From: Oligoflexales bacterium
Lineage (GTDB): Bacteria > Bdellovibrionota_B > Oligoflexia > Oligoflexales > RGVZ01
Direction of reading: 5' to 3'
NCBI GenBank assembly: GCA_947468665.1
Contig: CANILH010000021.1
Location: 1-41,806, forward strand
Length of the DNA stretch: 41,806 nt
Below, in pieces: positions 27,500 to 35,603 of this stretch. Under the pieces are notes generated by a model, which saw only the letters and a program-made list of their open reading frames with translations, did not search any database and was not told where the DNA came from. Every line of letters begins with the position of its first letter. The stretch's first letter is position 1. Made by a program: the position numbers and the translations under genes.

Positions 27500-27847
27500 T
27501 TAAGACGCGACTCGTACCTGGACGCGAAGTCCTGACTCATCCACTAAAGTCTGTAACGCTAACTGGATAAATACAACTTCCGGTTGACCAAGCGCTCTGG
27601 CAAACGCTACGGCCTTGAGAAGGCTTACAGATCGTCGTCCTTTTTCGATATCATTGAGGTGTTGGCGAGGTATGCTTAACACTCTCGCGAACTCCGCTTG
27701 GGAGATCTCGTCAGACAGGCGAAGAGCGGCTAGAGCTCGCCCGATATTAAGTGGACCACCAGTAAGTCGTTGTAAGATTACTTCTGAGTCTTTTGATCCA
27801 GGTGCTTTCTTCCTGGCGGGTGGCTTTTGTTTTTTCTTAATATTCAT
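27500..27847 (-). CDS. HigA-like XRE antitoxin
   Basis: A 115-residue DNA-binding antitoxin. A basic Lys-rich tail precedes LTGGPLNIGRALAALRLSDEISQAEFARVLSIPRQHLNDIEKGRRSV, a standard helix-turn-helix of the XRE family, and the C-terminal part (FIQLALQTLVDESGLRVQVRV) would bind the toxin. Toxin and antitoxin genes overlap by 11 bases, with the toxin first, as in HigBA. It is homologous over nearly its whole length to the antitoxin at 34391-34726. It would repress the promoter carrying the ACCCA/TGGGT palindrome upstream of the toxin gene. Confidence 0.88.
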   Translation of the reverse strand: MNIKKKQKPPARKKAPGSKDSEVILQRLTGGPLNIGRALAALRLSDEISQAEFARVLSIPRQHLNDIEKGRRSVSLLKAVAFARALGQPEVVFIQLALQTLVDESGLRVQVRVAS

Positions 27848-28118
27848 GATTATTTACCTCAACAACTCTCACGAATGTTACAGTGCCATCCGAAGTGACT
27901 TCATAAATTGCCCGATAAGACTTATTTAAACGAATTGATCGTTGACCCCTGTGGTTTCCAATGAGTTTTTCATCATGGTAGCCGGGAATCTCTCGAACTT
28001 TTCCCAAGCCAATGTCTTCCACGGACCGTTTCCAAAGATAGAATTTATCCACAATAAAAAATGGTAGTCGTCGAAGTTGTTTGACGGCCAACGCTGAGAT
28101 TTTAACGTGGTTAATCAA
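27837..28118 (-). CDS. HigB/RelE-family mRNA interferase toxin
   Basis: The toxin would cleave mRNA at the ribosome, blocking translation when its antitoxin is lost. The ORF track starts at a TTG that is really the -35 box of the promoter. The likely start is the TTG at 28118 (LINHVKISALAVKQLRRLP), with GGAAGG five bases upstream, giving about 93 residues, the normal size. Family features are the N-terminal KISxxAxKQLRRLP helix, GYHDEKLIGNHRGQRSIRLNKSYRAIYEV, and the C-terminal VEVNNHEY. It overlaps its antitoxin by 11 bases. Confidence 0.88.
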   Translation of the reverse strand: MINHVKISALAVKQLRRLPFFIVDKFYLWKRSVEDIGLGKVREIPGYHDEKLIGNHRGQRSIRLNKSYRAIYEVTSDGTVTFVRVVEVNNHEY

Positions 28119-28134: not shown

Positions 28135-28163
28135 TATGTACCCACAAATTGGGTACATGTCAA
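28135..28163 (-). promoter_or_regulatory. Sigma-70-like promoter of the HigBA-type module
   Basis: On the - strand TTGACA is followed after exactly 17 bases by TACATA. The -35 lies where the ORF track placed the toxin start, which is why I moved the start downstream. The operator palindrome fills the spacer. Confidence 0.8.
28136..28158. promoter_or_regulatory. Operator palindrome of the HigBA-type module
   Basis: ATGTACCCA-caaat-TGGGTACAT is a perfect 9-bp inverted repeat that spans the -35 to -10 spacer and overlaps the -10. Binding there by the XRE antitoxin would block RNA polymerase, the usual autoregulation of such modules. Confidence 0.8.
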
Positions 28164-28496: not shown

Positions 28497-28757
28497 ATGG
28501 CTGCCCCGAAGAAATTCACCTCGAAAATCGCCGCAAACGGCCAGGTTGTCGTTCCTAAAGAACTGCGGGACTTACTTAGTTTGAAGGGCGGAGATTCTAT
28601 AGTCTTCATAGCGGAAGAGACAGGGACTGGCATGATCAGGATTGAGTTAAAAAAACCCACAAAATCCTTCAAAAACATGCTGGGACTTTTTTCAGACCTC
28701 AAGGGACGTTCAACGGCGAAAATTCTCCGTGAGCTTGACGACGAGGAAATGCCATGA
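28497..28757 (+). CDS. AbrB/SpoVT-type antitoxin
   Basis: An 86-residue antitoxin with the swapped-hairpin AbrB domain at 7-55: FTSKIAANGQVVVPKELRDLLSLKGGDSIVFIAEETGTGMIRIEL. The motif NGQVVVPKELRDLL is the classic DNA-binding signature of MazE/AbrB/VapB-like proteins. The C-terminal MLGLFSDLKGRSTAKILRELDDEEMP would bind and inhibit the toxin. It overlaps the PIN toxin gene by ATGA (28754). GGAGAC precedes the ATG. The promoter overlaps a palindrome, consistent with self-repression. Confidence 0.9.
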   Translation: MAAPKKFTSKIAANGQVVVPKELRDLLSLKGGDSIVFIAEETGTGMIRIELKKPTKSFKNMLGLFSDLKGRSTAKILRELDDEEMP

Positions 28758-29203
28758 TTATTCTGGACTCCTGCGCGGTGCTTGATATTGTTTTTGGAGA
28801 GGCGCAGGCGACGAGCCTGACAGAATTTCTTGATCGAGAACAGGCCAACGGACGAGACATCGTCTTTCTTCCGCTCACGGTTCTTGAAAGCTTCTCAGTA
28901 GTGGCTGTGAGATTTAAAGAAGGAAAATCGAAAATCCACGATCTGGATTACTACCTGGGCATTATCCGGGATTTTGGCTCGGTCACGACTCTGGGCGATC
29001 TGTCTTCTGACATTATTGTAGAGTCGGCTAAAATCAAGGCGACACATGCCGCGAGCATGGTCGATTGCTACCTTATCGCAAACGCGGTCGCCCGAGGTGC
29101 TGAGATTATAACGGCTGACCAGGAGATCTTAAAATTTCGCTCAAAAAGCTCCAAGACCAGAAAAATAAACAAAAAATTCTCCGGCATTAAATGGCCTAAA
29201 TAG
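28754..29203 (+). CDS. PIN-domain toxin (VapC-like)
   Basis: A 149-residue PIN ribonuclease. The first acidic ligand is in MIILDSCAVLDIVFGE (Asp5), a second in PLTVLESFSVVAV, and the third group is HAASMVDCYLIANAVARGAEIITADQEI, with Asp in MVDCYL and ITAD. These four acidic positions coordinate the divalent metal that cuts RNA. Start overlaps the antitoxin stop. The C-terminus is Lys-rich (KSSKTRKINKKFSG). It is a type II toxin-antitoxin pair with its neighbour. The target RNA cannot be told from sequence. Confidence 0.9.
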   Translation: MIILDSCAVLDIVFGEAQATSLTEFLDREQANGRDIVFLPLTVLESFSVVAVRFKEGKSKIHDLDYYLGIIRDFGSVTTLGDLSSDIIVESAKIKATHAASMVDCYLIANAVARGAEIITADQEILKFRSKSSKTRKINKKFSGIKWPK

Positions 29204-34132: not shown

Positions 34133-34166
34133 AAAGAGCCGGTCACTGAGGTGGCCGGCTCTTTTT
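34133..34166 (+). terminator. Rho-independent terminator after the S41 peptidase
   Basis: AAAGAGCCGGTCAC and GTGGCCGGCTCTTT form a 14-bp stem (one T-G wobble) around TGAG, followed by a T run. The A-rich start allows use from both sides. Confidence 0.92.
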
Positions 34167-34205: not shown

Positions 34206-34234
34206 TTGCCTAACACCCCTGATAAGGGTATTAT
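34206..34234 (+). promoter_or_regulatory. Promoter of the second HigBA-like locus
   Basis: TTGCCT, a 17-base spacer, then TATTAT. The spacer holds ACCC-ctgata-AGGGT, a shortened version of the operator found in the intact module, in the same place between -35 and -10. Confidence 0.65.
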
Positions 34235-34249
34235 CTACGAGGTTCTGGT

Positions 34250-34401
34250 ATGCCGGATATTCGAATCGTTATAATCGAAACAGAGGCGCAAAAAAAACTT
34301 CGTAAGGTTCTAATCGCTCCTATCGCGCGATTTATGCTGAGATTGAGCAAAAGGCCGTTGAATTCATCAGTATTGAGGAGGTGCATAAGCATGAATATTA
34401 A
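34250..34401 (+). pseudogene. HigB-like toxin with internal deletion
   Basis: The start encodes MPDIRIVIIETEAQKKLRKV, like the N-terminal helix of the toxin at 27837-28118. The sequence then shifts frame to NRSYRAIYAEIEQKAVEFISIEEVHKHEY stop, matching that toxin's LNKSYRAIYEV...VEVNNHEY end. About 46 codons of the middle, including the conserved HDE/RGQRSIR region, are gone, and the deletion is out of frame. The toxin must be inactive. Its end still overlaps the antitoxin ATG by 11 bases, exactly as in the intact module. The ORF track fused this remnant with the antitoxin. Confidence 0.88.
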
Positions 34402-34726
34402 AGGCAAGTCTAAAAAAAGCTCAGCGGTCTCGTTTCTCGAAGATCTTACTGGTGGACCACTAAGTCTCGGGCGACTTGTAGCCGCGATTCGTCTTGGCGA
34501 GGAGGAAACACAAAGCGAATTTTCCAAGCGCCTCGGAGTGTCAAAAGCGCATCTTTGTGACGTTGAGAAAGATCGACGTATTGTCAGTCCAATCAGAGCT
34601 AGTCAGTGGGCAAAAAAGCTTGGCTATGACCCAGAACAATTTATTGAGCTCGCCCTACAGGGAGAGCTGCGGAAGTGTGGCCTCTCCTATAAGGTCACAA
34701 TCAAGCCCATGGGCAAAGCCTCGTAA
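34391..34726 (+). CDS. HigA-like XRE antitoxin (orphan)
   Basis: The true start is MNIKGKSKKSS at 34391, with GAGGAGG nine bases upstream; the ORF track adds 47 residues of toxin remnant. The 111-residue product has LTGGPLSLGRLVAAIRLGEEETQSEFSKRLGVSKAHLCDVEKDRRIV, an XRE helix-turn-helix, and a C-terminal YKVTIKPMG. It is a paralogue of the 27500-27847 antitoxin and starts with the same MNIK. Its toxin is deleted, so it remains as a lone repressor; it might still neutralise or regulate the other HigBA module. Confidence 0.88.
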   Translation: MNIKGKSKKSSAVSFLEDLTGGPLSLGRLVAAIRLGEEETQSEFSKRLGVSKAHLCDVEKDRRIVSPIRASQWAKKLGYDPEQFIELALQGELRKCGLSYKVTIKPMGKAS

Positions 34727-34739
34727 AATAAATTTTCAT

Positions 34740-35603
34740 TTATTTTATAATGCTTTTAACCCAATTGACTCGCGATTTTTTCGATTCAATTGAGTTCATG
34801 TTGTGATCGTCATCAATCCATTCAAGTTTTTTTGGCTGTTTTGCGGTTGTGTACAGGGCTTCGACAGCCTTAGTTGTTAACCAATCATCTTGTTTTCCAT
34901 ATTGCAAAAACAGCATTTTGGCCCTCGTTGCCGGAAGTGTCTCAGTTAGATCGGTTGGCATTAAAATTGATCTGAACCGGTCAAGCTGTGCTTTGTTCGC
35001 GCCGTCACGGGCCTTTAGCGCTACGGGATGGAGACTTGTGGTCCAAAAATTGGAAAGGTCTGGAATCGCGCCTGTCAAGAGGGAGGCATAAATTCGATGT
35101 TCCGTTGTCATCCACAATCCACCAATTCCGCCGCCTAAATTCCTTCCTATAAAAACAACGCGTTCGGGATTTACTTGATATTGCGATAATAGCAAATCAA
35201 CCCACAGTGAAAGTTCGGCGCTTGTTAGTTTCCATATTTCCAATTCTTTGTCTGGATTTTGTATGCCTCTGGGCACTTTCCACTCGGATCGGCCATAGGG
35301 AGCTTCTGGAAGTATAGATATTGCTCCCTGTTTTGCGAGATCCTTAGCTTCATCTAGAAAGGAGTCTTTATGCGATGTGGCGGAGTGTAAAAAAATAATC
35401 GCTGGCTTGCGGTTTTTGCCCGCTTGCTCGCTTTGGACAACAAAAGCCGAAGCATGAGGGGACGTAGGTAAAAATATTTCTTTAGTGGAGATCAAGTTAT
35501 TTGCCGCAAATCCAGTATGATTGACAAAGAACGCAAAGGCCACAATCGACCAACTGACCAGCGTTCTAATTTGAGAGGTTTCATCGAAGCGACAGTCTAT
35601 CAT
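34740..35603 (-). CDS. Exported alpha/beta-hydrolase with atypical nucleophile elbow
   Basis: A 287-residue protein with a signal-like N-terminus (TLVSWSIVAFAFFVNHTGFAANN). The fold is alpha/beta hydrolase of dienelactone-hydrolase or acyl-peptidase type: KPAIIFLHSATSHKD carries the oxyanion-side loop, LQYGKQDDW (Asp239/240) the acid, and DDDHNM (His267) the base. The nucleophile elbow reads G153-R-N155-L-G157, so the expected Ser of GxSxG is Asn. Either it is not a hydrolase or it uses another residue. Its ATG follows directly after the stop of the HAD gene (TAAATG), with AAGGAGC upstream, so the two are co-translated. Confidence 0.8.
   Translation of the reverse strand: MIDCRFDETSQIRTLVSWSIVAFAFFVNHTGFAANNLISTKEIFLPTSPHASAFVVQSEQAGKNRKPAIIFLHSATSHKDSFLDEAKDLAKQGAISILPEAPYGRSEWKVPRGIQNPDKELEIWKLTSAELSLWVDLLLSQYQVNPERVVFIGRNLGGGIGGLWMTTEHRIYASLLTGAIPDLSNFWTTSLHPVALKARDGANKAQLDRFRSILMPTDLTETLPATRAKMLFLQYGKQDDWLTTKAVEALYTTAKQPKKLEWIDDDHNMNSIESKKSRVNWVKSIIK

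Follow-up and report, generated by a model that had tools for sequence, protein, structure and literature searches.

Loss of the toxin with retention of the antitoxin is a common fate of HigBA/GraTA-type units and is already known from other bacteria. In the part of the toxTA (HI0660/HI0659) study of H. influenzae on which we draw, 97 of 181 strains carried a 178-bp deletion inside the toxin gene, the commonest deletion at this locus, with promoters and antitoxin intact; the recognisable antitoxins were all full-length, no strain had the toxin only, and the antitoxin was under purifying selection with a dN/dS of 0.037 (PMC6957337). Antitoxins without a toxin are also abundant in populations of Klebsiella and E. 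coli and are largely the remains of degraded pairs (PMC7192599, PMC10790755). In the GraTA module of P. putida and the HigBA module of P. vulgaris, dimers of the antitoxin bind a palindromic operator (PMC6393540).

Here, the window, that is the whole stretch of 41,806 nucleotides that was analysed, is a complete contig of a 2.6-Mb draft genome estimated to be 85% complete. It contains two loci that resemble GraTA and HigBA in that a RelE-fold toxin comes first, an HTH antitoxin second, and a palindromic operator is present, but at one of these loci (positions 34206-34726) the toxin is absent. We consider it very probable that this is a degenerate HigBA/GraTA-type locus in which the toxin was gutted by a deletion while the antitoxin remains equipped for expression and autoregulation; an action of this antitoxin on the related module about 6 kb away, which is intact, is not supported. 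The features of the two loci are as follows.

27500 to 27847, minus strand: intact cognate antitoxin of 115 aa (HTH_3, 40.5 bits)
27837 to 28118, minus strand: intact RelE/HigB-type toxin with a TTG start (RelE fold, pLDDT 89)
28136 to 28158, minus strand: perfect operator palindrome ATGTACCCAATTTGTGGGTACAT inside the promoter of the intact module
34133 to 34164, plus strand: terminator-like hairpin of the preceding S41 peptidase gene (14-bp stem, -24.5 kcal/mol, z -5.2)
34206 to 34234, plus strand: predicted promoter, -35 TTGCCT, 17-nt spacer, -10 TATTAT, at the same distance from the start codon as TTGACA-17-TACATA of the intact locus
34211 to 34233, plus strand: operator-like palindrome TAACACCC-CTGATAA-GGGTATTA in the promoter spacer, with 7 of 8 half-site positions paired and with the place and geometry of the family palindrome
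34250 to 34309, plus strand: toxin head MPDIRIVIIETEAQKKLRKV (beta1-alpha1), in the antitoxin frame; contains the top-ranked 18-mer of the family profile
34250 to 34726, plus strand: single open frame of 158 codons, comprising toxin head, out-of-frame stretch and antitoxin
34306 to 34310, plus strand: deletion junction, net 136 nt of the toxin gone (alpha2, alpha3, beta2, beta3)
34309 to 34401, plus strand: toxin tail with beta4-beta5 and the C terminus, still read in the toxin's own frame, stop at 34399-34401 (toxin HMM 29.6 bits; position profile 69 bits)
34376 to 34383, plus strand: antitoxin Shine-Dalgarno AGGAGGTG inside the EEV codons of the toxin (8-nt match, 7 nt before the ATG)
34391 to 34726, plus strand: complete orphan antitoxin of 111 aa (Pfam HTH_3 28.9 bits, cut-off 23; family HMM 142 bits)

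A first-pass annotation of the window had described the ends of a gutted toxin at the orphan locus, and both ends are recognisable. Using a position profile built from 49 intact relatives, with the window's own toxin left out, the head DIRIVIIETEAQKKLRKV, from 34256 onwards (start codon at 34250), ranked first among the 41,415 stop-free 18-residue words in the six frames of the window, ahead of the head of the intact toxin itself. The tail SNRSYRAIYAEIEQKAVEFISIEEVHKHEY (34309-34398) scored 69 bits, compared to 71 bits for the intact toxin and -13 for the next word in the window, and the remnant fits the same profile as the RelE-fold toxins of the family. Family columns 18 and 64 are normally spaced by 138 nt and in the remnant by 2 nt, so that a net 136 nt, or 45 1/3 codons, are missing and head and tail lie in different frames, which agrees with the initial estimate of about 46 central codons lost out of frame. 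On the model of the intact toxin, the missing part corresponds to alpha2, alpha3, beta2 and beta3 and includes five strongly conserved residues (W29, D49, G54, R60 and R63). Since the lost part encoded strands 2 and 3 and helices 2 and 3 of the RelE fold, together with most of the core's invariant residues, no active toxin can be produced, and the active toxin of a functional type II module is indeed lost here along with the reading frame. The remnant is unable to form the RelE fold. The same scar was found in no close relative of the orphan in the window, and the deletion may be recent.

The antitoxin next to this damaged toxin had been called complete and is full-length, which makes it an orphan antitoxin with an adjoining toxin that is not intact. 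It has an HTH of the HigA kind, with the HTH_3 score above the cut-off, and its structural model (pLDDT 87) gave HigA-like matches, the HigA of P. vulgaris being one of the top hits by fold, at an E-value of about 4e-3. The TIGR02607 model recognised 43 of 50 family members at E <=1e-3, and the orphan in the window obtained an E-value of 0.014. The toxin gene precedes and overlaps the antitoxin gene at both window loci, and the 11-base overlap ATGAATATTAA that the first-pass annotation had reported as preserved is identical at the two; such an overlap is the norm in the family and is present in most intact relatives. Throughout the family, the Shine-Dalgarno sequence of the antitoxin is encoded within the conserved EEV codons at the 3' end of the toxin gene, a placement that may explain why toxin tails survive deletions.

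A promoter is likewise present at the orphan locus, as judged from the sequence, although the promoter scan by itself performed at chance level, with 2 sites found versus 1.1 expected. The spacer had been described as half-operator-like, a wording that falls short of the 7 of 8 paired positions in TAACACCC-N7-GGGTATTA. A palindrome of the form GTAC(A/C)CC-N-GG(G/T)GTAC is located in the promoter of intact and gutted family loci alike, and is perfect in the intact locus of the window and in the gutted loci L004, L129 and L095. The orphan operator is more diverged than most family operators and is weak by sequence alone, patterns with 3 mismatches being not rare in the window; its position within the promoter, as in the family, makes it a convincing candidate. 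By analogy, the orphan antitoxin would repress its own promoter, since P. putida GraA and P. vulgaris HigA do so, acting as repressors in the form of free dimers (PMC6393540).

The orphan locus is set apart from the S41 peptidase gene by the terminator-like hairpin on one side, and on the other it is followed by a gene of unknown family in convergent orientation (34740-35603). When the flanking genes were used to look for an orthologous site, whether empty or intact, none was found: the S41 peptidase was at most 47% identical within the genus and the downstream protein had no relative. There was no match to phages and no Rfam or tRNA feature. The model of the toxin in the intact module matches the RelE, YafQ, YoeB and HigB structures, and its sequence narrowly misses the cut-offs of NCBIfam RelE/StbE and Pfam ParE and also stays below that of HigB. 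Adjoining this module in divergent orientation is a VapBC-like pair (28497-29203, plus strand), consisting of an AbrB/MazE-like antitoxin followed by a PIN-domain protein.

We collected 112 distinct family loci in searches anchored on the antitoxins; with the orphan antitoxin as the sole query, the named genomes gave no match, and a query with the alignment succeeded. The family extends over Bdellovibrionota, Myxococcota, Acidobacteriota and Gammaproteobacteria. The automatic call yielded 62 loci with an intact toxin, 36 with a broken or partial toxin, 12 in which no toxin could be recognised and 2 located at the edge of a contig. Four of the broken ones (L079, L051, L121 and L017) may in fact be intact, since they only miss the initial codons or carry a stop close to the start. 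By hand reading, 34 of the 93 loci included in the tree were orphans, with no working toxin and the antitoxin frame kept, and about a third of the family loci are thus of this kind. The toxins were broken by central deletions, frameshifts, nonsense codons and loss of the 5' half. In a counter-search anchored on the toxins, covering 43 and 58 genomes, an intact toxin without an antitoxin was never seen among the loci read; the antitoxin frame followed directly, except for L172 and L177, both of which are cut off by the end of their contig. Antitoxin-only loci were hence common and toxin-only loci unseen, an asymmetry as predicted for a harmful toxin. Other arrangements were also observed, such as a tandem of two different family antitoxins behind a single intact toxin (L181/L185/L186; G056:C110, 12369-13307), and a family antitoxin without a HigB-like toxin right behind a small antitoxin-looking gene of another type (L054/L019; G019:C51), possibly BrnA/CopG-like as judged by eye.

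The first-pass annotation had interpreted the locus as an antitoxin retained after toxin loss. This interpretation held up, as relatives with an intact toxin and the same gene order, overlap and operator represent the ancestral state and the losses recur independently. The tree, inferred from 93 rows and about 107 columns and with deep forks that are not resolved, required 22 changes of state, of which at least 13 were forced by well-supported branches. The nearest relative of the window orphan by identity (L004, 57-61%) is also gutted. Shared ancestry of the two deletions was considered and rejected: the junctions differ, and the tree joins L004 to an intact locus in a supported clade to which the window orphan does not belong, so the two toxins were lost separately.

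To follow selection after toxin loss, one gutted locus whose scar is shared by two congeneric species (L060/L024) is informative. Its antitoxin has accumulated 11 synonymous and 7 replacement changes, corresponding to a dN/dS of 0.19, which is below 1 (p = 6e-4) and shows that the antitoxin has been under purifying selection after the toxin was lost. The paired antitoxin of the same two genomes (L023/L009) likewise has a dN/dS of 0.19. The gutted toxin of L060/L024 is fused in frame to the antitoxin, and the operator is GTACTTCTATGGAAGTAC in L060 and near-identical in L024; this locus lends itself well to a natural test of what orphan antitoxins are used for. A dN/dS estimate for the window orphan itself was discarded due to saturation of the synonymous sites. 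Overall, orphans resemble the family as closely as paired antitoxins do (p = 0.64; by region p 0.55-0.97), which fits continuing use and recent losses alike. The idea that orphans keep the DNA-binding half only was rejected, as no region differs from the paired antitoxins.

It could be argued that the deletion is an artefact of assembly or binning that is absent from the organism, given that this is a draft, metagenome-type assembly of limited completeness. We regard this as highly improbable, since the junction is embedded among coherent neighbours in a contig of 41.8 kb, deletions of this kind recur in independent genomes, and 136 missing nucleotides is not a typical base-calling error. Scarcely more credible is the view that the fusion of the toxin head to the antitoxin is a new functional protein selected as such. 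The deletion, as the first-pass annotation had not seen, brings the head in frame with the antitoxin, such that a start at the old toxin start codon, which has a GAGGT ribosome-binding match, would give 47 residues followed by the antitoxin in one open frame; moreover, the head in the likewise fused L024/L060 locus is unchanged in two species. The stretch between the head and the antitoxin is however out-of-frame toxin code, and the antitoxin retains its own, stronger start. By our own reading of six independent central deletions, the head has come to lie in frame 0, the antitoxin frame, in two cases (the window and L024/L060), in frame +1 in three (L004, L120 and L129) and in frame +2, the toxin's own, in one (L147), which is as chance would distribute them, and the in-frame fusion is therefore probably due to chance. 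In L147, at about 154 nt upstream of the antitoxin, an in-frame central deletion of about 40 codons has brought the two ends of the toxin together in its own frame, and a non-toxic mini-toxin is a possible product.

The first-pass annotation had also proposed an anti-addiction role against the module at 27.5-28.1 kb, a suggestion that found no backing in our comparisons. The two window antitoxins are about 42% identical over the folded part and are located in different parts of the tree, and because of this they are not a recent duplicate pair. Among the 58 genomes of the class, assigned by hand as having the orphan or the intact module, the intact module was also present in 3 of 9 orphan-bearing and 12 of 49 other genomes (p = 0.68), and a genome of the same genus (G001, L100) has the orphan but lacks the intact module. 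More generally, the orphan may have been kept because it binds and neutralises a related toxin, be it the intact HigB-like toxin of the window or family members that arrive on incoming DNA. Anti-addiction has been suggested as a role of orphan antitoxins at large, though not demonstrated as a common use (PMC7354431), family members are carried by two Legionella plasmids, and the antitoxin is complete, with an N-terminal helix region that is unusually family-like (2nd of 60). We nevertheless consider it unlikely, since the intact toxin already has its own antitoxin, from which the orphan is as distant as described above, and orphans and intact modules are not linked at the genome level.

A role as a transcription regulator, in which the orphan would be a solo HTH repressor of its own promoter and perhaps also of the same-geometry operator of the intact module, is a tentative possibility with somewhat more in its favour. 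The palindrome lies in the promoter with the same geometry at both loci, the HTH part of the orphans shows no sign of relaxation, and the HigA/GraA proteins repress in their free-dimer form. On the other hand, the recognition helices are just 50% identical, the outer half-site bases differ (AACACCC/GGGTATT versus GTACCC/GGGTAC), with the orphan operator the less perfect one, and nothing except the antitoxin is located downstream of the orphan promoter. It would be most surprising if the locus were a domesticated two-form regulator, with the 158-residue fusion (toxin beta1-alpha1) and the 111-residue antitoxin jointly controlling the intact module in trans via the matching operator geometry.

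We thus favour degeneration of a HigBA/GraTA-type locus. What remains is the promoter with its operator, the ribosome start of the toxin, the tail with the antitoxin Shine-Dalgarno and the antitoxin, which is the minimum for expression and control of the antitoxin. By stripping the net 136 nt from the toxin gene, the deletion has left no active toxin. Most of the antitoxin would be translated from its own strong ribosome-binding site, initiation at the old toxin start would add some of the 158-residue fusion, and the antitoxin would repress its own promoter. It would then have persisted because toxin loss does no harm or is favoured and the antitoxin costs little or is of slight use.

Taken by itself, the locus is an ordinary one, and what is of some value is the family comparison, in which toxins are often lost and antitoxins kept; these natural and independent examples make the open question of how orphan antitoxins are used a testable one. 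In contrast to the Klebsiella and E. coli surveys, which relied on identity to known pairs (PMC7192599, PMC10790755), the evidence here consists of scars, frames and selection in one family across phyla. The orphan locus differs from toxTA in that it belongs to a different subfamily and was observed in one draft genome; toxTA is under CRP-S competence regulation and is polymorphic within a species for which many strains are available, and the portion of its description used here does not mention a head-antitoxin fusion such as that in the window (PMC6957337). As described there, toxTA is nevertheless similar to the window locus in its essentials: a toxin-first pair of the RelE/HigB type, in which the toxin has been gutted and the promoter and the antitoxin are left.
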